A stretch of 56,201 nucleotides of DNA from a virus. A program made the translations under genes and the position numbers. Positions 48,035 through 55,639 of this stretch are shown here, one piece after another (positions within the stretch are counted from its first letter, which is position 1; the number at the start of each line of letters is the position of its first letter). The notes beneath the pieces are model-generated. The model was not told where the DNA came from. It saw only the letters and a list, made by a program, of their open reading frames with translations, and did not search any database. Where the stretch lies: positions 1 through 56,201 of the IMG/VR virus record IMGVR_UViG_3300027777_000045; one strand, written 5' to 3'.

Positions 48035-48988
48035 TTAGGCCGCTTCCGCCATTTCGATAGCGGTCTCAAGAGCACGAACCTTGAGGTTCTTGTTTGAACC
48101 ATACCAGGCTGAAGTCATCCGGGTATCGGTAGAGCGACCGATGAGGTGATCGGTCATATAGGTAGTGGCATTAAACGCCTGCCACCAGGATCCAGCAGCA
48201 TATTCGGCACCAGGCTGAGTCTCAAGAATACCAAGAGCGGTCCGAGCATTCTTGGTGATTTCAGAGCGCTTGGCATTTTCCGAGGCAGGAAACACACGCT
48301 TGAAGTACTCAACCACGTTTTCATCACTGTAGCGCTTAGAACCGAGGAACTGAGCCATTTCCTTGTACTGGGCAAGCTTTTCGGCTGCAACACCGAGCAT
48401 CAACTTAGTCTGGTCACCGTTAAACTCACGACGGTGGCTGATCTTGACCATACGCTCGACCTTGGTATTGAGCGACAAAGTCAAAGTGTTGTTACACACC
48501 ACACGGATCGGAGTGAACCGAACATCGGTGCTGCAGCCATACTTATGGAAGTTGGTGAAGTGCAGGTAAGAGTCAACCTTATCACCACCAAATAACTCGA
48601 ATGAATCCTTCACCTTAGCCAGAGCCCAGACAATCTTGCCGTCACAGAGACTACCAGCGGTGTGCATTTCCATGTCACCCTCAGCAATGAAGTCGTTAAA
48701 GAACTCGAAAGCCTCAGAGTTCTGCACCGGATTCCAGTCATCCGAAACCACATCAACGATCTTGCTATCGCTAGAGCGAACCAGAGCAGACCAACCGACA
48801 TTAACATTCTTGCCGGCAACCTTAGCAAAGGCAGGGACCTTATTGACCTCCCAATTCAGACCAGCTGCATCGAGCATCTGTTCGGGGGTAAGATCGCCGG
48901 GTACCCGAGTACCCAGACCGTGCCAAGGCACATCACCGGCATATGCCATCTGAGCCTTACCGTCAACCATTTCGATATTATGAGCCAT
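48035..48988 (-). CDS. DUF932 phage/plasmid-like protein
   Basis: 317 aa. The DUF932/TIGR03299 signature is clear: MAHNIEM, PWHGLGTRV, LTPEQMLDAAGLNWEV, WNPVQNSEAFEFFNDFI, HKYGCSTDVRFTPIRVVCNNT and a C-terminal GSWWQAFNATTYMTDHLIGR. The family is common on phages and plasmids; its role is not established, though it is often placed near replication or recombination genes. Codon use is noticeably more GC-rich than in neighbours. It has its own consensus promoter and an AAAGG SD. Confidence 0.9.
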   Translation of the reverse strand: MAHNIEMVDGKAQMAYAGDVPWHGLGTRVPGDLTPEQMLDAAGLNWEVNKVPAFAKVAGKNVNVGWSALVRSSDSKIVDVVSDDWNPVQNSEAFEFFNDFIAEGDMEMHTAGSLCDGKIVWALAKVKDSFELFGGDKVDSYLHFTNFHKYGCSTDVRFTPIRVVCNNTLTLSLNTKVERMVKISHRREFNGDQTKLMLGVAAEKLAQYKEMAQFLGSKRYSDENVVEYFKRVFPASENAKRSEITKNARTALGILETQPGAEYAAGSWWQAFNATTYMTDHLIGRSTDTRMTSAWYGSNKNLKVRALETAIEMAEAA

Positions 48989-49105: not shown

Positions 49106-49294
49106 TTAATCTTCAAGATCGTCTCTGAGTTGATGAGTAACTTCCACCCATGCCGCAACTCTCACTTTTGAAAATACTTCTACATCGAGTAGTCCATTTC
49201 TTACTTTTTCTGAAATAAGATATTTTACTTCTTTATTGGTTTTAAATTCACATTCTTTTCTCGAATAAACACGGTAAGCGCATAAACTAATCAT
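49106..49294 (-). CDS. Micro-gene array 1, third member
   Basis: 62 aa, starting MISLCAYRVYSRKECEF and ending WVEVTHQLRDDLED, the QLxDDLED form of the shared tail motif. The ATG lies inside the GATGAT codons of the preceding gene (8-nt overlap). A further ATG follows its stop after AAAA and opens a 6-codon ORF (MLTKKF), which looks like a vestigial next-gene junction. Confidence 0.65.
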   Translation of the reverse strand: MISLCAYRVYSRKECEFKTNKEVKYLISEKVRNGLLDVEVFSKVRVAAWVEVTHQLRDDLED

Positions 49295-49451
49295 CTAAAT
49301 CGTCTCTAAGTTGTTCATGAATATGTGGAACATACAACATAATATCATATAATACTTGGTTATGATCATAGACATCGCATTTAATTAGATTATGAGCAGG
49401 AATTCCAATATTCCATATCGATGGTGGAAAGATAATATCTTTAACTTTCAT
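49287..49451 (-). CDS. Micro-gene array 1, second member
   Basis: 54 aa from the ATG at 49451 (MKVKDIIFPPSIW), ending HIHEQLRDDLDD. Longer in-frame starts would read back through the upstream gene and are rejected; an ATG nine nt earlier (MQKMKV) is possible. The central region (IPAHNLIKCDVYDHNQVLYD) is mixed alpha/beta-like. No known homology recognised. Confidence 0.6.
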   Translation of the reverse strand: MKVKDIIFPPSIWNIGIPAHNLIKCDVYDHNQVLYDIMLYVPHIHEQLRDDLDD

Positions 49452-49626
49452 TTTCTGCATCTTCCACAAATTGTTCTCTAATATGAAATTCACAATCAAG
49501 TATCTGACCAATATGTTTAAGTTCAAAAACTTCCATAAAGTTATGATATACTACATATTTCCTAACCTTTATCCTAATAGTATCCTCAACATCATCCATT
49601 ATTTGAGTTATGGTTTGACTATACAT
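49441..49626 (-). CDS. Micro-gene array 1, first member
   Basis: 61 aa from the ATG at 49626, which has AAGGA 8 nt upstream (an ATG six nt earlier is too close). MYSQTITQIMDDVEDTIRIK, then FHIREQFVEDAENES, the array tail in its AENES form; the last member of array 2 ends similarly (AEDINES). It sits directly behind a consensus promoter. Confidence 0.65.
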   Translation of the reverse strand: MYSQTITQIMDDVEDTIRIKVRKYVVYHNFMEVFELKHIGQILDCEFHIREQFVEDAENES

Positions 49627-49667
49627 TTTCATATTCCTTTTATATTATCCATATTATGTCATTACTG

Positions 49668-49769: not shown

Positions 49770-50636
49770 TTAAGTACGGAATTCCAAGTCTCGAAGCACC
49801 TCGGGGTCAACACCATAAGTCCAGGCATTTGCTTCCAACGCGGTCTTGACAGTAGGCGGCACAGGAATAGCAAACTCACGACCAGTACCACAAACAACAC
49901 GCAGGAACTGTTCTTTACCAATATCAGGAATATTCACCTGCAGAAGAGTACCAATCTGCGGATCCTCATCCTGGTCAATAACCTTGGACTTCAATTCCTT
50001 TAGAATATGAACCCAACCAAGGATTTCACAAGCAACTCGACGGAGTTCCAGGTTGTCTTCCTTGAGAGCGGCCTTAGCGGTCAACTCTTGCTTATTGGTG
50101 ATCCAGAACCACTTATCACGGCTCAGACGAACACCGTGCCAGGCAAACACCATGGTACCGTCCTGATATTCAATGGCGGGACCATCCTCACAATGCAGAC
50201 GGTTCTGGTCATCGAATCGGATATACATCGGGAACTCTTGAATAATAGCAAAGTCCTTGTCGACATAAGTCCAGCAAGCAACTTGCGCATATTCAATCAG
50301 CGGTTGGACAATCTCCAGATCCAGACCGCAGACTTCCTTGAAGTAAGCATAGAAACTCAACCAAGAACTATCATGAGCACCATAGATCATAGAGTTCATG
50401 AATTCAGTAGAAGTACCGTTAGGCTTTACAGACTTATAGATCTTATAGGCATCCATAGGTCCAGTAGCATAATAAACACTAGAAGGTGCTTCAAGATCAC
50501 GAGACGTGTAGCACTTTGCAAGAGCAGTCTTAGCTGCAGCAAAGTCAAGAACTTCAGTACGAAGACCGATTTCCAACCAGCGGTCCCGATAGACGGGAAT
50601 TTGCGCCAGTTGGTCTTCATTCAAACTAGTAATCAC
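49770..50636 (-). CDS. DUF6745-like protein
   Basis: 288 aa. The core GPMDAYKIYKSV, DSSWLSFYAYFKEVCGL, RLHCEDGPAIEYQDGTMVFA and WHGVRLSRDKWFW is the repeat signature (LHxxxGPAIxYxDG...HGV) of the DUF6745 family found in phages and actinobacteria. The role is unknown. It ends VDPEVLRDLEFRT. It is followed by a strong terminator and lies after the 120-aa His-containing protein, a pairing I also recall elsewhere. GC-richer codon use than the structural genes. Confidence 0.75.
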   Translation of the reverse strand: MITSLNEDQLAQIPVYRDRWLEIGLRTEVLDFAAAKTALAKCYTSRDLEAPSSVYYATGPMDAYKIYKSVKPNGTSTEFMNSMIYGAHDSSWLSFYAYFKEVCGLDLEIVQPLIEYAQVACWTYVDKDFAIIQEFPMYIRFDDQNRLHCEDGPAIEYQDGTMVFAWHGVRLSRDKWFWITNKQELTAKAALKEDNLELRRVACEILGWVHILKELKSKVIDQDEDPQIGTLLQVNIPDIGKEQFLRVVCGTGREFAIPVPPTVKTALEANAWTYGVDPEVLRDLEFRT

Positions 50637-50696: not shown

Positions 50697-51059
50697 TCAG
50701 TCGGCAGCCTTACGGAAACCTTCGGCAGTATATTCACGTTGACGGCGAATCTCGTAGGTACCGGGTGGGACCATAATAGCCTCGTGAGTATCGAAAGATC
50801 GAAGATGGTCAATCCGAGTGTCTTCCTTGACAAGAAGGAACATCTTGTACAAGTCAACATTCTGAGAGTTAGACTTATCGGCAGGAATTTCGAATGCCTC
50901 GACTCGAGTTGCTTCCATCACGTGATTGTGCCCAGTTTCACTGTGAGCAACAATTACCTTGCCATTCTCAGGAGCAACGGGAACAACACCCTCGGGGATA
51001 TTCTGAATACGCAGGATAATGAAGTCACCCTGAGCAGCCATGTTACGCATAATCTTCAT
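50697..51059 (-). CDS. Small beta-rich protein paired with DUF6745
   Basis: 120 aa, SD GGAG 8 nt before the ATG. Central VIVAHSETGHNHVMEATRVEAFEIP with two His in GHNHV, and a C-terminal HEAIMVPPGTYEIRRQREY. The HxxTGHxH pattern could bind metal. It is the first gene after a promoter and lies 60 nt upstream of the DUF6745 gene. No established function. Confidence 0.65.
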   Translation of the reverse strand: MKIMRNMAAQGDFIILRIQNIPEGVVPVAPENGKVIVAHSETGHNHVMEATRVEAFEIPADKSNSQNVDLYKMFLLVKEDTRIDHLRSFDTHEAIMVPPGTYEIRRQREYTAEGFRKAAD

Positions 51060-51116: not shown

Positions 51117-51361
51117 GGGTTATTTTTGAACAAAATGTTTTTGGCTCTAGTGAGAGCATTACCTGTGTCTGTAATATGGCCTTTTGAAACAAAATGGCCA
51201 ACTTGATGTGCACAGTCTGTTACAGTGAATAGTGCTGTAAGAGCCTCACGTAGTTCATCTCGTTCGTCTAACAAGGCCAACATATGTGTCTTTTCGACCA
51301 TAATAACAGTTGGACCTTGAGAGACGAGGGCACGAAATGTTTCGGTATCTGTAATAGCCAT
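51113..51361 (-). CDS. Small helical hypothetical protein
   Basis: 82 aa from the ATG at 51361, overlapping the upstream stop as TAATG with GGAGG 7 nt away. MAITDTETFRALVSQG, then a helix MLALLDERDELREALTALF and Cys/His residues (TDCAHQVGHF). No family recognised. Last gene of the 52160-51113 operon. Confidence 0.65.
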   Translation of the reverse strand: MAITDTETFRALVSQGPTVIMVEKTHMLALLDERDELREALTALFTVTDCAHQVGHFVSKGHITDTGNALTRAKNILFKNNP

Positions 51362-51777
51362 TATTGATCCTCCATCGCTTTTGTTACATGTCGGCACTTC
51401 TTATGGAATTGAAATCCAATACAAGTACACGACCAACGTTTAGTGCGGCCATCCTGTCGCACGGTATAGACTTCACCGGTTTTAGATGAAGTCACATTTA
51501 AGACCTTGTCGACAGTGACCTTCGGTTGTTTTACCGTAACACCACCAATCGACAAGACTTTATGCATAGGGATATAATTGAAGCCCTTGGTCTCACTATT
51601 TAGAATAGTAAGATCTGCAATAGAAGTCATCCACTTAGGAGTAGGTACAACAACCCCACGAAGAGTCAATGTAGGCTGTACCCTATGTACTGAACATGGA
51701 GCCATAGCATAACGTGCTGCAGCATTGTCCAATACGACCTCTACGACTGAACCTTCGGTGGGGAGTTGCATTTTCAT
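51361..51777 (-). CDS. SWIM-type zinc-finger protein
   Basis: 138 aa. The C-terminal ~45 residues read VYTVRQDGRTKRWSCTCIGF, QFHKKCRHVTKAM: a CxCx(n)CxH SWIM zinc finger preceded by a typical beta strand pair. SWIM domains bind DNA or proteins and occur in many phage and plasmid proteins. The N-terminal ~90 residues are beta-rich without a known domain. Overlaps both neighbours by TAATG. Confidence 0.8.
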   Translation of the reverse strand: MKMQLPTEGSVVEVVLDNAAARYAMAPCSVHRVQPTLTLRGVVVPTPKWMTSIADLTILNSETKGFNYIPMHKVLSIGGVTVKQPKVTVDKVLNVTSSKTGEVYTVRQDGRTKRWSCTCIGFQFHKKCRHVTKAMEDQ

Positions 51778-52661: not shown

Positions 52662-52841
52662 TTAACTTTCGTTAATATCCTCAGCGACTTGGTTCTCTAG
52701 ACTTATATTGAACGATCTATCATAAATTGGCATTTGTAGCCCAGCATATGTCTTAAACCGAACGTTTTTTCGAACAGATTTATGCAATTCGCGCATAGAA
52801 TCATCCAATACATGACTCAAAAGCACATCAATAGTCTTCAT
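52662..52841 (-). CDS. Micro-gene array 2, tenth (last) member
   Basis: 59 aa: MKTIDVLLSHVLDDSMRELH at the N-terminus, then basic RKNVRFKTYAG, and NISLENQVAEDINES at the C-terminus. The ATG lies within the last codons of member nine (14-nt overlap). No ATG follows the motif, consistent with its being the end of the array; the next promoter starts 12 nt later. Confidence 0.7.
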   Translation of the reverse strand: MKTIDVLLSHVLDDSMRELHKSVRKNVRFKTYAGLQMPIYDRSFNISLENQVAEDINES

Positions 52842-53025
52842 AGTTTAGATTTTCCTTGATTTGTTCATCGAGTAACGTATAAATGTCATCTATAAATGCT
52901 GGTTCAACCCATCGAATCACATAACTACGAATACCATCAGCAAATACACCCTGAGATTTGTGCCAAATAGCATCTGATACATCATCCGCCATGATATTAC
53001 GTGCTGTTTCATTCATTCTAAGCAT
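52828..53025 (-). CDS. Micro-gene array 2, ninth member
   Basis: 65 aa. MLRMNETARNIMADDVSDAI, then WHKSQGVFADGIRSYVIRWV and a C-terminal helix DIYTLLDEQIKENLNYEDY, a variant of the tail (QIKENLN). Shares an S/GDxxW[KH] segment with members one and six, supporting common descent. Confidence 0.7.
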   Translation of the reverse strand: MLRMNETARNIMADDVSDAIWHKSQGVFADGIRSYVIRWVEPAFIDDIYTLLDEQIKENLNYEDY

Positions 53026-53176
53026 TATCTAGATCTTCTTTTATTTGTACTTTTAATGGGACCAAAACAAGCATAATTTCATGCAATAATTTATCACCGA
53101 CAGCAAATTGTAAACGAGGACAAATTTCAGATGTATCAATATGTCGCATGGTTTGGATTTTATTGACTATATTCAT
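53018..53176 (-). CDS. Micro-gene array 2, eighth member
   Basis: 52 aa. MNIVNKIQTMRHIDTSEICP, then a helix LHEIMLVLVPLKVQIKEDLD ending NA. The start overlaps the stop of the membrane-peptide gene (ATGA). Tail motif QIKEDLDNA; its GATCTAGATAATG codons hold the start of member nine. Confidence 0.65.
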   Translation of the reverse strand: MNIVNKIQTMRHIDTSEICPRLQFAVGDKLLHEIMLVLVPLKVQIKEDLDNA

Positions 53177-53319
53177 TGATATAACAATCTCATTATTGTA
53201 ATAAATTCGTGTACTCCAAAAATACCTACAGCAATCAATGCAAAGCCTGTTATAGTCATAGCAATTGCTACAATTGTAAGAGTAACAACGTCAATATAAG
53301 CATTTAACTTTTCAAGCAT
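53173..53319 (-). CDS. Micro-gene array 2, seventh member: single-span membrane peptide
   Basis: 48 aa, MLEKLNAYIDVVTLTIVAIA, then a continued hydrophobic stretch to ~residue 35 (MTITGFALIAVGIFG) and a short C-tail ending RLLYQ. It is the only array member without the acidic Q-x-x-E-D-L-D tail. Its own ATG still uses the motif codons of member six (GGAGGATTTAGACGATG), so it was inserted at, or kept, the standard junction. Confidence 0.65.
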   Translation of the reverse strand: MLEKLNAYIDVVTLTIVAIAMTITGFALIAVGIFGVHEFITIMRLLYQ

Positions 53320-53491
53320 CGTCTAAATCCTCCCAAACTTGACTGATCATATAATCTTCAATTATAGCTTCAATTACAACAAAATGATTAAGCCAAATTT
53401 TATTACGAACCTCCAATCCACTCGACATTGCCGTTTGTTTCCAGGCAGTATCCGATGTATCAGTATGTATCCGTTCAACAATTCTAGACAT
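53312..53491 (-). CDS. Micro-gene array 2, sixth member
   Basis: 59 aa from the ATG at 53491 in the tail codons of member five; a longer upstream frame is rejected. MSRIVERIHTDTSDTAWKQT, then a hydrophobic helix LNHFVVIEAIIEDYMISQVW ending EDLDDA. The TSDTAWK segment matches members one and nine. Confidence 0.7.
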   Translation of the reverse strand: MSRIVERIHTDTSDTAWKQTAMSSGLEVRNKIWLNHFVVIEAIIEDYMISQVWEDLDDA

Positions 53492-53678
53492 CACGTAAAT
53501 CCTCATCCACTTGTATAAACACATTATCCAATATCGGTCTATGAATACGACCATTCAAATCCATACGTATATTCAATGCTATATGGCGCATGGTACCATC
53601 ATCTGTAGTATCCCATGTTCTACCCGAGGCTTCTTCTGCACACTGGCTTTTTATTATATATCGTATATTCTTAGACAA
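53484..53678 (-). CDS. Micro-gene array 2, fifth member (TTG start)
   Basis: 64 aa. The start is TTG (MSKNIRYIIKSQ), placed exactly where neighbours have ATG and preceded by GAGGATC. Then TWDTTDDGTMRHIALNIRMD and a tail NVFIQVDEDLRDV. The weaker start may set a lower relative output. Confidence 0.65.
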   Translation of the reverse strand: MSKNIRYIIKSQCAEEASGRTWDTTDDGTMRHIALNIRMDLNGRIHRPILDNVFIQVDEDLRDV

Positions 53679-53856
53679 GATCTAGATCCTCTTCCATTTG
53701 ATCTTGAATTATACCGCGCATAATAAGTAAGGGCTCAGCATAATCTTGAATAATACGTGCATCACACCAAACCTCCAAGGAAACACTTTCGTGTTCATGG
53801 AGCTTATGACCGGCTTGAATTCTAACCTGATATTTGATTTCATTTATAATTGACAT
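53671..53856 (-). CDS. Micro-gene array 2, fourth member
   Basis: 61 aa. MSIINEIKYQVRIQAGHKLH, then SVSLEVWCDARIIQDYAEPL, LLIMRGIIQDQMEEDLDLV. The final 12 residues form an amphipathic helix carrying the array tail (QMEEDLD). Start overlaps member three by 17 nt. Confidence 0.7.
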   Translation of the reverse strand: MSIINEIKYQVRIQAGHKLHEHESVSLEVWCDARIIQDYAEPLLIMRGIIQDQMEEDLDLV

Positions 53857-54025
53857 CTAGATCCTCATCTATCTGATCTTGAAGGTTATATCGTAATTCA
53901 AGTCCAATTTTAGCACTAACATCACCTAGAGTCACACCTACAAGTACTTCCTCGGATAATGCATCAAGATACAAATCGAGTGAATCTTGAATTGATCCTT
54001 TAATACATCCAGTAATTTCAGACAT
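53840..54025 (-). CDS. Micro-gene array 2, third member
   Basis: 61 aa. MSEITGCIKGSIQDSLDLYL, then EEVLVGVTLGDVSAKIGLEL and a tail LQDQIDEDLDVNYK, four residues longer than usual because the frame continues past the next start. Start overlaps member two by 8 nt (ATGTCTGA). Confidence 0.7.
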   Translation of the reverse strand: MSEITGCIKGSIQDSLDLYLDALSEEVLVGVTLGDVSAKIGLELRYNLQDQIDEDLDVNYK

Positions 54026-54182
54026 TTTCTAGATCTTCTTCAATTTGGGAATAAATCGATTTCGAATAATCATCATGCCAAAGTTCGTCTTCAATCTCAC
54101 ATACCATATCAAATCCGACATTCTCATATACAATATGAAAAAGATTACCTTCACCCATGATTTTACTCTCTGTATCAGACAT
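54018..54182 (-). CDS. Micro-gene array 2, second member
   Basis: 54 aa, acidic: MSDTESKIMGEGNLFHIVYE, then VGFDMVCEIEDELWHDDYSK and a tail SQIEEDLENV. It has no close match to the other members outside the tail. Overlaps member one and member three by 8 nt each through the sequence ATGTCTGA. Confidence 0.65.
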   Translation of the reverse strand: MSDTESKIMGEGNLFHIVYENVGFDMVCEIEDELWHDDYSKSIYSQIEEDLENV

Positions 54183-54363
54183 CATCTAGATCTTCGGCAA
54201 ATTGATCCAATAGAGGTTCGCGAACTTGATCTAATACTTGATATCCTGTTTCATTATTGACGTAAAATCCTATATGATAATCAGCATTTTTGACACGTAC
54301 TGCTTTCCATATTATATCGCCGGCCATGTCTGATGCAGAACTGATTTTTTCACCAATTGTCAT
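54175..54363 (-). CDS. Micro-gene array 2, first member
   Basis: 62 aa. MTIGEKISSASDMAGDIIWK, then VKNADYHIGFYVNNETGYQV and REPLLDQFAEDLDDV. No SD at usual distance from its ATG; instead a 5-codon leader ORF ends on it (ATGA), so translation is probably by re-initiation. Confidence 0.7.
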   Translation of the reverse strand: MTIGEKISSASDMAGDIIWKAVRVKNADYHIGFYVNNETGYQVLDQVREPLLDQFAEDLDDV

Positions 54364-54377
54364 ATTATATACATCAT
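54360..54377 (-). CDS. Five-codon leader ORF (MMYII) before array 2
   Basis: AGGAG 7-8 nt upstream of ATGATG, then three codons and a TGA that overlaps the ATG of member one. The leader start sits in TTAGATGATG, which resembles the CTAGATGATG junctions inside the array, as if it were the remnant of a deleted first member. Confidence 0.45.
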   Translation of the reverse strand: MMYII

Positions 54378-54397: not shown

Positions 54398-54426
54398 ATT
54401 ATAACAAAAAACCCGGTACTTGTCAA
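54398..54426 (-). promoter_or_regulatory. sigma70-type promoter of micro-gene array 2
   Basis: TTGACA (54421-54426), 17 bp, TATAAT (54398-54403). The -35 lies inside the loop of the upstream terminator and the spacer contains its 3' arm and T-run. Confidence 0.85.
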
Positions 54427-54451
54427 CGATTAAGTCAACAATACCGGGTTT
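54409..54451 (-). terminator. Terminator hairpin embedding the array 2 -35 box
   Basis: A 10-bp perfect stem AAACCCGGTA/TACCGGGTTT with a 23-nt loop and a T-run on the minus strand. It ends transcripts of the 75-aa gene while its loop carries TTGACA of the next promoter. Confidence 0.8.
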
Positions 54452-54474: not shown

Positions 54475-54702
54475 TTAACGTTCTAGGGCTTTTTGTACTT
54501 CTGGTGTATAAACCCACGCTTCCATGGCATTATCCCATTCATATACTGAATTCCACCAATCCAATAGCTCTTCATGTGTGAAATAGTACCTAGGTTGCAT
54601 CCATGCCGTACCAAGATCAATATATGCGGCCGTGCATTCCGCGTATAGATCCCTATGAGAGAATAAAGTTATATCACTAGAAGCTTGAATTGCAGTTACC
54701 AT
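54475..54702 (-). CDS. Small hypothetical protein
   Basis: 75 aa from the ATG at 54702, which overlaps the 3' end of the upstream gene (GGATGGTAA). MVTAIQASSDITLFSHRDLY, then Trp/Tyr-rich MQPRYYFTHEELLDWWNSVY and ending VQKALER. No family recognised; last gene of its operon before the composite terminator. Confidence 0.65.
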   Translation of the reverse strand: MVTAIQASSDITLFSHRDLYAECTAAYIDLGTAWMQPRYYFTHEELLDWWNSVYEWDNAMEAWVYTPEVQKALER

Positions 54703-55151
54703 CCCTTTTTGTCTCCGTATTCCTCGTTCCAATCGTATCCAGCCATATATTCGGCAATCTCTTCTTCAGTTACAGCAAGAACACAGTCACCATTATAAGT
54801 ACCATTTGGATACCAATGAGGATACCGTGCCCTATCATAATAACTATCAGCACTGCCTCGATCATAGAGACTACCATGGCGATTACGATCAAATGCTAAA
54901 ACCTTCGGATCTACAACGGTTTCCTCAGGAGCCTTCTCGGATCGGTTATATTGTGGCTGACCTAGTGCAATAGTATCCTTTGCCATATGGACAACATTAT
55001 CCAATGCAACGTTGGAGCCAGGATTTACCTTAGCAATAGTATGTAGTGCATCATCATAGAGTTCAATCAGCCGAATAGCATCCTGGATAGTGACAATTTC
55101 ACTATCCCTGGCGCGAGCATATAGTTCTTCGAGTCGTTCAATGATGTTCAT
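54696..55151 (-). CDS. Conserved phage protein (DRGSADSYY...PHWYP family)
   Basis: 151 aa. The C-terminal ~60 residues (LYDRGSADSYYDRARYPHWY, then TEEEIAEYMAGYDWNE) form a motif I recognise in many phage and plasmid hypotheticals. The N-terminal half is helical. SD GGAG 8 nt before the ATG, behind a consensus promoter with a short 5' UTR hairpin (AAAGGC/GCCTTT). Function unknown. Confidence 0.75.
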   Translation of the reverse strand: MNIIERLEELYARARDSEIVTIQDAIRLIELYDDALHTIAKVNPGSNVALDNVVHMAKDTIALGQPQYNRSEKAPEETVVDPKVLAFDRNRHGSLYDRGSADSYYDRARYPHWYPNGTYNGDCVLAVTEEEIAEYMAGYDWNEEYGDKKGW

Positions 55152-55254: not shown

Positions 55255-55467
55255 CTAAGGATTCTGCCAAGGCGGCGGTCGATCAGGACCACGTGCCTGA
55301 TTGCCAATAGCCTCAATCCTCTTCATGACATCTTCATATGCACTCAGATAACCTTCTCCCCACATCAGATGCAGACTCAAGTCAGTGTCATGGTTATAAG
55401 GATTATCTGCAAAATGCCGACCACGCTTATAGTCATCATAACCAGACCAATAAGGATCAGCTGACAT
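55255..55467 (-). CDS. Ribosome-modulation-factor-like small protein
   Basis: 70 aa. GYDDYKRGRHFADNPYNHDT, then LMWGEGYLSAYEDVMKRIEA: the spacing G-x2-Y-x2-G ... NPY ... W-x2-G-[WY]-x2-A resembles bacterial RMF (55 aa), which dimerises 70S ribosomes. A phage version might modulate host ribosomes, but many phage RMF-like proteins are uncharacterised. Its ATG lies in the tail codons of the upstream micro-gene (11-nt overlap). Confidence 0.5.
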   Translation of the reverse strand: MSADPYWSGYDDYKRGRHFADNPYNHDTDLSLHLMWGEGYLSAYEDVMKRIEAIGNQARGPDRPPPWQNP

Positions 55468-55639
55468 TACACAAATCCTCCATCAATTGAAGTTTAGTCA
55501 TAGGCCCAATAGATAGAGGCGCAAGCTGATTCATATATCCAAGTGCTTGGATGGCGCCATACTGATACATAAGTTTAACTACAATGGAAGTACGCATATG
55601 ATATACAACATCTGGAATGTTAGTCATATCTAACATCAT
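55457..55639 (-). CDS. Solitary micro-gene with the array tail motif
   Basis: 60 aa. MMLDMTNIPDVVYHMRTSIV, a Gln/Leu/Tyr-rich helical middle, and LQLMEDLCNVS at the C-terminus, the same Q-hydrophobic-x-E-D-L tail. GAGGATTTGTGTAATG codes both for EDLCNV and for the next gene's start. This extends the junction design beyond the two arrays. Start overlaps the upstream stop (ATGATG). Confidence 0.65.
   Translation of the reverse strand: MMLDMTNIPDVVYHMRTSIVVKLMYQYGAIQALGYMNQLAPLSIGPMTKLQLMEDLCNVS

Follow-up and report, generated by a model that had tools for sequence, protein, structure and literature searches.

What kind of gene system consists of ten tiny genes in a row, each running into the next and nearly all ending in the same few residues? 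The question is raised by an environmental phage fragment of 56 kb (IMG/VR record IMGVR_UViG_3300027777_000045, positions 1 to 56,201; the whole 56,201-nucleotide stretch is called the window), which carries T4-type structural genes and a gp6-like baseplate protein whose best matches in named phages, e.g. Caulobacter phage Cr30, Sinorhizobium phage phiM12 and Pelagibacter phage HTVC008M, reach ~33-35% identity. Its minus strand holds ten consecutive open reading frames (ORFs) of 48-65 amino acids (aa) spanning 54363-52662 (chain 1; g1 to g10). An initial annotation took them for a duplicated family presenting variable heads on one conserved tail to a common partner, be it a host or phage protein or a protease. 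We find that chain 1 is almost certainly a genuine coding array, that it very probably belongs with a widespread and apparently undescribed family of (xxQV)n repeat micro-genes, and that its products probably work with a protein of the phage itself, the DUF6745 protein, whose near-constant neighbour is a 120-aa protein here called p120.

Architecture and conservation of chain 1

The layout described in the initial annotation, ten ORFs overlapping by 4-17 nucleotides (nt) behind a consensus promoter, was borne out by the sequence: the nine junctions from g1/g2 to g9/g10 overlap by 8, 8, 17, 8, 8, 8, 4, 8 and 14 nt, and the shared tail, of the form QΦx[ED][DN][LI], ends nine of the ten products, g7 being the exception (Table 1). 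In 500 trials of a first-order Markov null, ORFs of at least 45 aa never formed an overlapping chain of more than 2, compared with the 10 observed. A strict regular expression for the tail matched 12 of 438 ORFs of at least 30 aa, where residue shuffling over these ORFs gave an expectation of 0.1. Chain 1 accounts for nine of these matches; the additional ones lie outside it, two in a second chain (chain 2, 49106-49632) and one at 55457-55639, and the first gene of chain 2 (c2a) fits the motif only loosely (EQFVEDAENES). The S/GDxxW[KH] segment attributed to g1, g6 and g9 is present in all three, and the proposed duplication followed by divergence is supported.

Relatives were gathered by searching with the protein encoded upstream of chain 1 (54696-55151), which gave eight loci, five of them chain-bearing (L023-L027). 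The initial annotation had made its reading depend on frame and tail being kept in related phages, and those of g1, g3, g9 and g10 are intact in all five contigs. Genes g4 to g8 are present in subsets of them, new tailed members appear at 6271-6462 of L023 and 8959-9156 of L027, and the place corresponding to window 55457-55639 is held in L024 (6479-6649) by a different tailed gene. The more distant L029 (162 kb), which shares the upstream gene only, yielded neither the tail pattern nor DUF6745. Chain 1 is mostly under purifying selection in the relatives, with median pairwise ratios of nonsynonymous to synonymous substitution rates (dN/dS) of ~0.40 for g1, 0.49 for g4, 0.55 for g5, 0.71 for g6, 0.73 for g7, 0.44 for g8, 0.26 for g9 and 0.28 for g10; g3, with a value close to 1 at a very low dS, is uninformative. 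The corresponding medians are 0.47, 0.38 and 0.34 for the chain 2 genes and 0.07 for DUF6745.

Probable kinship with (xxQV)n repeat arrays

Two close relatives, L024 and L027, carry canonical overlapping (xxQV)n micro-gene arrays upstream of the chain, at positions whose equivalents fall past the end of the window. Their genes (e.g. MTSIKDQVYIQVLGQVHSQVYNHV...NQVENQLKDDLS and MINIQDQVMNQVMNQV...NQVYMQLKEDLLYHD) end in NQLKDDLS or MQLKEDLLYHD, the same cap as in chain 1, and the degenerate first gene of the L024 array (MQKMTVNSLHSI...QNQVSDLV...IKEQLKDDLS) has the same tail. What ends the chain 1 products is this family's final tetrad with its acidic cap, not a free-standing tag.

We read the heads of the window micro-proteins as decayed (xxQV)n repeats, because V/I/L residues upstream of the tails favour the tetrad-register phase (62/146 vs 32/148, 31/154 and 41/145 in the other phases; p = 2e-4) and some members still hold literal tetrads (YQVLDQVREPLLDQF in g1; AAQVRNQVREDLD in L027). 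The idea of variable heads on one conserved tail is thus kept in part: the tail is conserved at the protein level, but it is not a separate tag, and the heads look like period-4 repeats in decay. Like the arrays of the family, chain 1 consists of co-directed small genes with overlapping stop and start codons, bears the cap in 9 of 10 members, and lies on the same strand as an insert-free DUF6745 gene (49770-50636) and p120 (50697-51059). Canonical members have at least four literal in-register QV tetrads; chain 1 does not, so we file it as a diverged relative.

DNA patterns run on viral contigs matched 18 stretches with two QV tetrads plus cap and at least 120 with six tetrads. After sorting, at least some two dozen distinct phage types proved to carry arrays in which 2-16 (xxQV)n micro-genes, in most cases overlapping, follow one another; the remaining matches were single genes or unrelated tandem repeats. 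PHROG 5189 and 33514 match the canonical QV protein of L027 weakly but significantly (E 5e-4 and 2e-3), whereas single window micro-proteins gave chance-level matches only, and no significant family, in Pfam and PHROG. A nucleotide search with the chain region found no match in 50,697 phage records, and a tblastn search of phages with a QV-repeat protein found none either, probably through masking as low complexity. The scan of genome contigs by QV DNA pattern was set aside, its matches being mostly unrelated tandem repeats (LAQV, QVQV, TPQV and similar); a hidden Markov model of DUF6745 found nothing in the loci of these repeats.

DUF6745 as the probable partner

The protein encoded at 49770-50636 passes the gathering cut-off of PF20530 (100.6 vs 27 bits; residues 83-280; E 9.7e-29). 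On the strand that it shares with both chains, its gene precedes chain 2 by ~140 nt and follows chain 1 at a distance of ~2 kb. Among the QV-pattern matches were fused proteins of ~340-570 aa with (xxQV)n inside and both ends matching this protein. The insert site is identical in 13/13 aligned fused proteins, between the N-terminal ~60 residues and the DUF6745 domain, and the insert is absent in the 17/17 other proteins aligned, which come from contigs with arrays as well as from the window and its relatives. No array lies near the 24 DUF6745 proteins with at least seven QV units (one stray QV ORF is 9.5 kb off); insert-free DUF6745 proteins mostly have arrays on the same strand, -4 to 977 nt away, and the arrays of L048 and L111 enclose the DUF6745 gene. 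These loci were collected through QV patterns, by which co-occurrence of insert and array is visible and absence of both is not; none was seen to hold both, though this was detectable.

Of the array contigs measuring at least 10 kb, 17/24 contain DUF6745, against 0/25 control contigs of the same scan (p = 5e-8; p = 2e-7 without two near-duplicates), two further control contigs having been excluded for a pattern match in or beside their DUF6745 gene. Because the same repeats are elsewhere built into DUF6745, which the window carries nearby, the products of chain 1 probably work with it; that they would do so by direct binding is an evenly balanced proposition. The common partner invoked in the initial annotation is then likely to be the phage's own DUF6745 protein, as fusion, complementary distribution and neighbourhood indicate, and not an unknown host protein or a protease.

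Variants of the repeat region were also observed. A DUF6745 protein of a siphophage from Manatee Spring (L302:5347-6621; MW202476.1) has central (xSSL)n tetrads in place of (xxQV)n, with the site and the variable residues W/G/R/E as in (xxQV)n inserts, and a Deinococcus DUF6745 protein has leucine-rich-like repeats ahead of the domain. A Foldseek search with a model of a fused DUF6745 protein returned DUF6745-like viral models only and no PDB match at E <0.001.

The p120 protein, conserved as QGD...AHSETGHNHV...DTHE...PPGxYxxRQREYTxEG and without a model in Pfam or NCBIfam, adjoins DUF6745 or is separated from it by at most ~1.1 kb in most of the roughly 30 loci with both genes, and in L116 it is fused to the DUF6745 C-terminus. 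Homologs adjoin DUF6745 in Streptomyces, Deinococcus and a Mycobacterium prophage and lie near it in Nocardia; the Streptomyces and Deinococcus pairs (L306, L308) stand beside genes annotated as STM4011-STM4015 family (radical SAM proteins, hydrolase). The varying repeat slot suggests that DUF6745 and p120 may form a fixed core that accepts different repeat modules.

The tail as protein feature and initiation signal

The E-D codons of chain 1 (GAGGAT, GAAGAT) form the Shine-Dalgarno sequence for the gene that follows, whose start is overlapped by the last residues (ATGTCTGA and the like). The residues after EDL therefore track the identity of the next gene: g3 ends in EDLDVNYK where g4 follows and in EDLENV where g5 follows. 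At the chain ends, g10 keeps Q[IV][AL]EDI through synonymous changes (CAA/CAG, GAG/GAA), with variation free beyond this core, and the last gene of chain 2 (c2c) keeps HQ[LF]xDDL, written GAC GAT, which is no Shine-Dalgarno sequence. Across the family as a whole, the cap Q[VILMF]x[DEN][DE][LIFYVM] ends 0.56 of members with -1/-4/-7 overlaps and 0.60 of those with overlaps of the -8/-11/-14/-17 type, two classes that differ in reading-frame relation; the fraction falls to 0.32 among members not followed by a QV gene, some of them misdetected cases, and only 7/1604 internal repeat units carry the cap. Since it is kept at chain ends and in both overlap frames and is rare at internal units, we regard the cap as a C-terminal protein feature that has also been fitted as an initiation signal. 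The tail is thus a feature at both the protein and the nucleic-acid level. A sliding-clamp-binding motif (of the QLxLF type) was rejected for the tail, position 4 being acidic.

Features of the window

Table 1. Coordinates of the promoter, the micro-genes and the two core genes in the window
Feature	Position	Strand	Remarks
Consensus promoter of chain 1	54398..54426	-	TTGACA 54426-54421, 17 nt, TATAAT 54403-54398 (sequence)
g1, 62 aa	54175..54363	-	Tail DQFAEDLDDV; literal tetrads QVLDQVREPLLDQF retained
g2, 54 aa	54018..54182	-	Tail SQIEEDLENV; no ortholog found in the five relatives
g3, 61 aa	53840..54025	-	Tail DQIDEDLDVNYK
g4, 61 aa	53671..53856	-	Tail DQMEEDLDLV
g5, 64 aa	53484..53678	-	TTG start; tail IQVDEDLRDV
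g6, 59 aa	53312..53491	-	Tail SQVWEDLDDA
g7, 48 aa	53173..53319	-	Transmembrane-like protein without the tail
g8, 52 aa	53018..53176	-	Tail VQIKEDLDNA
g9, 65 aa	52828..53025	-	Tail EQIKENLNYEDY; one of the most conserved members
g10, 59 aa	52662..52841	-	Last of chain 1; tail NQVAEDINES, kept without an overlapping gene start
p120, 120 aa	50697..51059	-	Near-constant DUF6745 neighbour in diverse phages and bacteria
DUF6745 protein (PF20530)	49770..50636	-	Pfam; no repeat insert; proposed partner
c2a, first gene of chain 2	49441..49632	-	Tail EQFVEDAENES
c2b, second gene of chain 2	49287..49448	-	Tail EQLRDDLDD
c2c, last gene of chain 2	49106..49294	-	Tail HQLRDDLED
Isolated tailed micro-gene	55457..55639	-	Probable family member; tail LQLMEDLCNVS; 11-nt overlap with the next gene

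Several further observations concern the surroundings of these genes. A terminator-like hairpin with a T run (ACCCGGTA...TACCGGGTTTTTT; 54398-54451), from the upstream gene, overlaps the -35 region of the chain 1 promoter, and chain 2 is preceded by a similar order of hairpin, then promoter. A 5-codon ORF (ATGATGTATATAATATGA, MMYII; 54360-54377) with its own Shine-Dalgarno sequence overlaps the start of g1 by 4 nt; it appears to have arisen through a small frameshift, because the corresponding start in L024-L026 is in frame with g1 (MYNMTIGE, MHNMTIGE). The position of g7 is taken in L023, L024 and L025 by an unrelated protein of 75-96 aa, likewise tail-less. Between chains 1 and 2 lies a gene for a protein with a SWIM zinc-finger match (51361-51777), and just past chain 2 one for a DUF932/TIGR03299 protein (48035-48988), a kind also found near DUF6745 in L044, L109, L117 and L285.

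Discussion

The explanation we favour, with a probability of slightly above one half, is that the repeat module of DUF6745 has split off, multiplied, and come to be supplied in trans as micro-proteins made by coupled translation. The micro-proteins of chain 1 would descend from (xxQV)n proteins and keep their cap, the final Q-hydrophobic tetrad followed by [D/E/N]-[D/E]-hydrophobic. From its single promoter chain 1 would be transcribed into one mRNA, on which ribosomes may reinitiate at the overlapping stop and start codons, the cap codons often doubling as Shine-Dalgarno sequences, so that all members are made together. Coupled translation of overlapping genes has been measured in other systems (PMC6728339, PMC10666635), and short overlaps, which couple translation, are enriched for subunits of heteromeric complexes (PMC10666635). 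By way of the last tetrad and cap common to them, the repeat proteins might then assemble with DUF6745 and p120 into a mixed complex, replacing in trans the (xxQV)n insert that DUF6745 proteins of many phages and some bacteria carry in cis, with the variable heads presumably setting its specificity.

Several points weigh against this explanation. The collection of loci through QV patterns exaggerates the complementarity of insert and array. No DUF6745 gene was seen in 7/24 of the array contigs of at least 10 kb (contigs being fragments), the insert-free DUF6745 of L283 lies ~16 kb from the array, and in the window other genes fill the ~2 kb between chain 1 and DUF6745. The kinship itself is blurred, since window members hold two or three literal tetrads at most and the period-4 signal peaks near the tail, where an amphipathic helix could contribute. 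AlphaFold2 models are of low confidence, both for g9 (helices, pLDDT 59.5, not used as evidence) and for the helix of the QV insert (pLDDT ~42-76), and that DUF6745 binds the micro-proteins is something we infer.

Other explanations account for part of the evidence. The shared tail could be mainly a by-product of translation, the Shine-Dalgarno sequence and start codon falling in the last codons of otherwise unrelated small genes. GARGAT (E-D) together with GATGAx or AATGAx (D-D, N-E) does happen to encode acidic residues, the E-D codons and the residues after EDL in chain 1 do serve or track the next gene, the cap is less common in genes without a QV gene after them, and elsewhere the last gene of the L032 array ends in QLNES and the tails of L144 (REQTK) fit GGGAG. 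Yet QΦxEDI and QΦxDDL persist, with synonymous codon changes, in the chain-end genes g10 and c2c, the preceding Q-hydrophobic pair is kept though it lies outside the initiation signal, and the cap is equally common in the two reading-frame relations; with the period-4 heads and the DUF6745 link left unexplained as well, we consider this quite improbable. The opposite emphasis, on DNA or RNA, would make the arrays recombining 12-nt repeats whose protein products matter little. Canonical arrays do consist of 12-nt repeats, and repeat number varies among members and among fused proteins, but the window members have lost nucleotide repeats and still keep their frames, caps and purifying selection, and Q and V are retained while the other two tetrad residues vary, which makes it very unlikely.

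A host-takeover or anti-defence island, in which independent small early proteins would act on different host targets and share a C-terminal docking or stability tag, would fit the strong consensus promoter, the small size of the proteins, the fast gain and loss of members and the moderate dN/dS, and it has a precedent in the takeover cluster of 26 genes in SPO1 (PMC6873191). We nonetheless hold it to be unlikely: the tail belongs to a repeat family that is also inserted in DUF6745, the members of canonical arrays are too alike to suggest many separate targets, and none of DUF6745, p120 and the micro-proteins matched a PADLOC profile of known or candidate anti-phage defence families at E 0.1. 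As for chance or spurious ORFs, the single frames are short and match no family significantly, but null chains of at most 2 ORFs, conserved frames and dN/dS below 1 reduce this to a negligible prospect.

More tentatively, the supply of DUF6745 repeats in trans may amount to a new kind of phage system, in which combinatorial, dual-coded micro-proteins would plug into a core of DUF6745 and p120 and their heads diversify rapidly, perhaps in conflict with hosts or rival elements. If so, DUF6745 and p120 would gain a link to numerous environmental-phage arrays of tiny overlapping genes that have so far lacked an explanation, and chain 1 would exemplify both a domain dispersed as a swarm of free micro-proteins and a protein motif whose codons serve at the same time as a ribosome-binding site.

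Comparison with known systems

The initial annotation knew of no described system with this layout, and our literature search likewise found no description of a comparable chained micro-gene system, nor any mention of DUF6745, of strings such as DQVWDQV, or of at least two of STM4011-STM4016 together. The entries for PHROG 5189 and 33514, which the canonical QV protein of L027 matches and the window members do not match significantly, are of unknown function in the family table, with no array organisation or partner recorded. The host-takeover module of SPO1, in a comparison that did not extend to sequences, is not known to have a common repeat ancestry, a shared cap or a DUF6745 link. What chain 1 has in common with it is the clustering of many small phage genes (PMC6873191). 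With translationally coupled overlapping genes (PMC6728339, PMC10666635) chain 1 shares overlapping stop and start codons, a likeness of architecture only; unlike them, the system described here strings together up to ten or more small genes, with frequent overlaps of 8-17 nt, and encodes a conserved protein motif and an initiation signal in the same codons. DUF6745 proteins with an internal (xxQV)n insert have the same tetrapeptide repeats, and their DUF6745 domain and p120 neighbour recur in the window. In contrast to these inserts, which have no cap, the repeats of the window are separate overlapping micro-genes, many per genome and strongly decayed, that end in a C-terminal cap.
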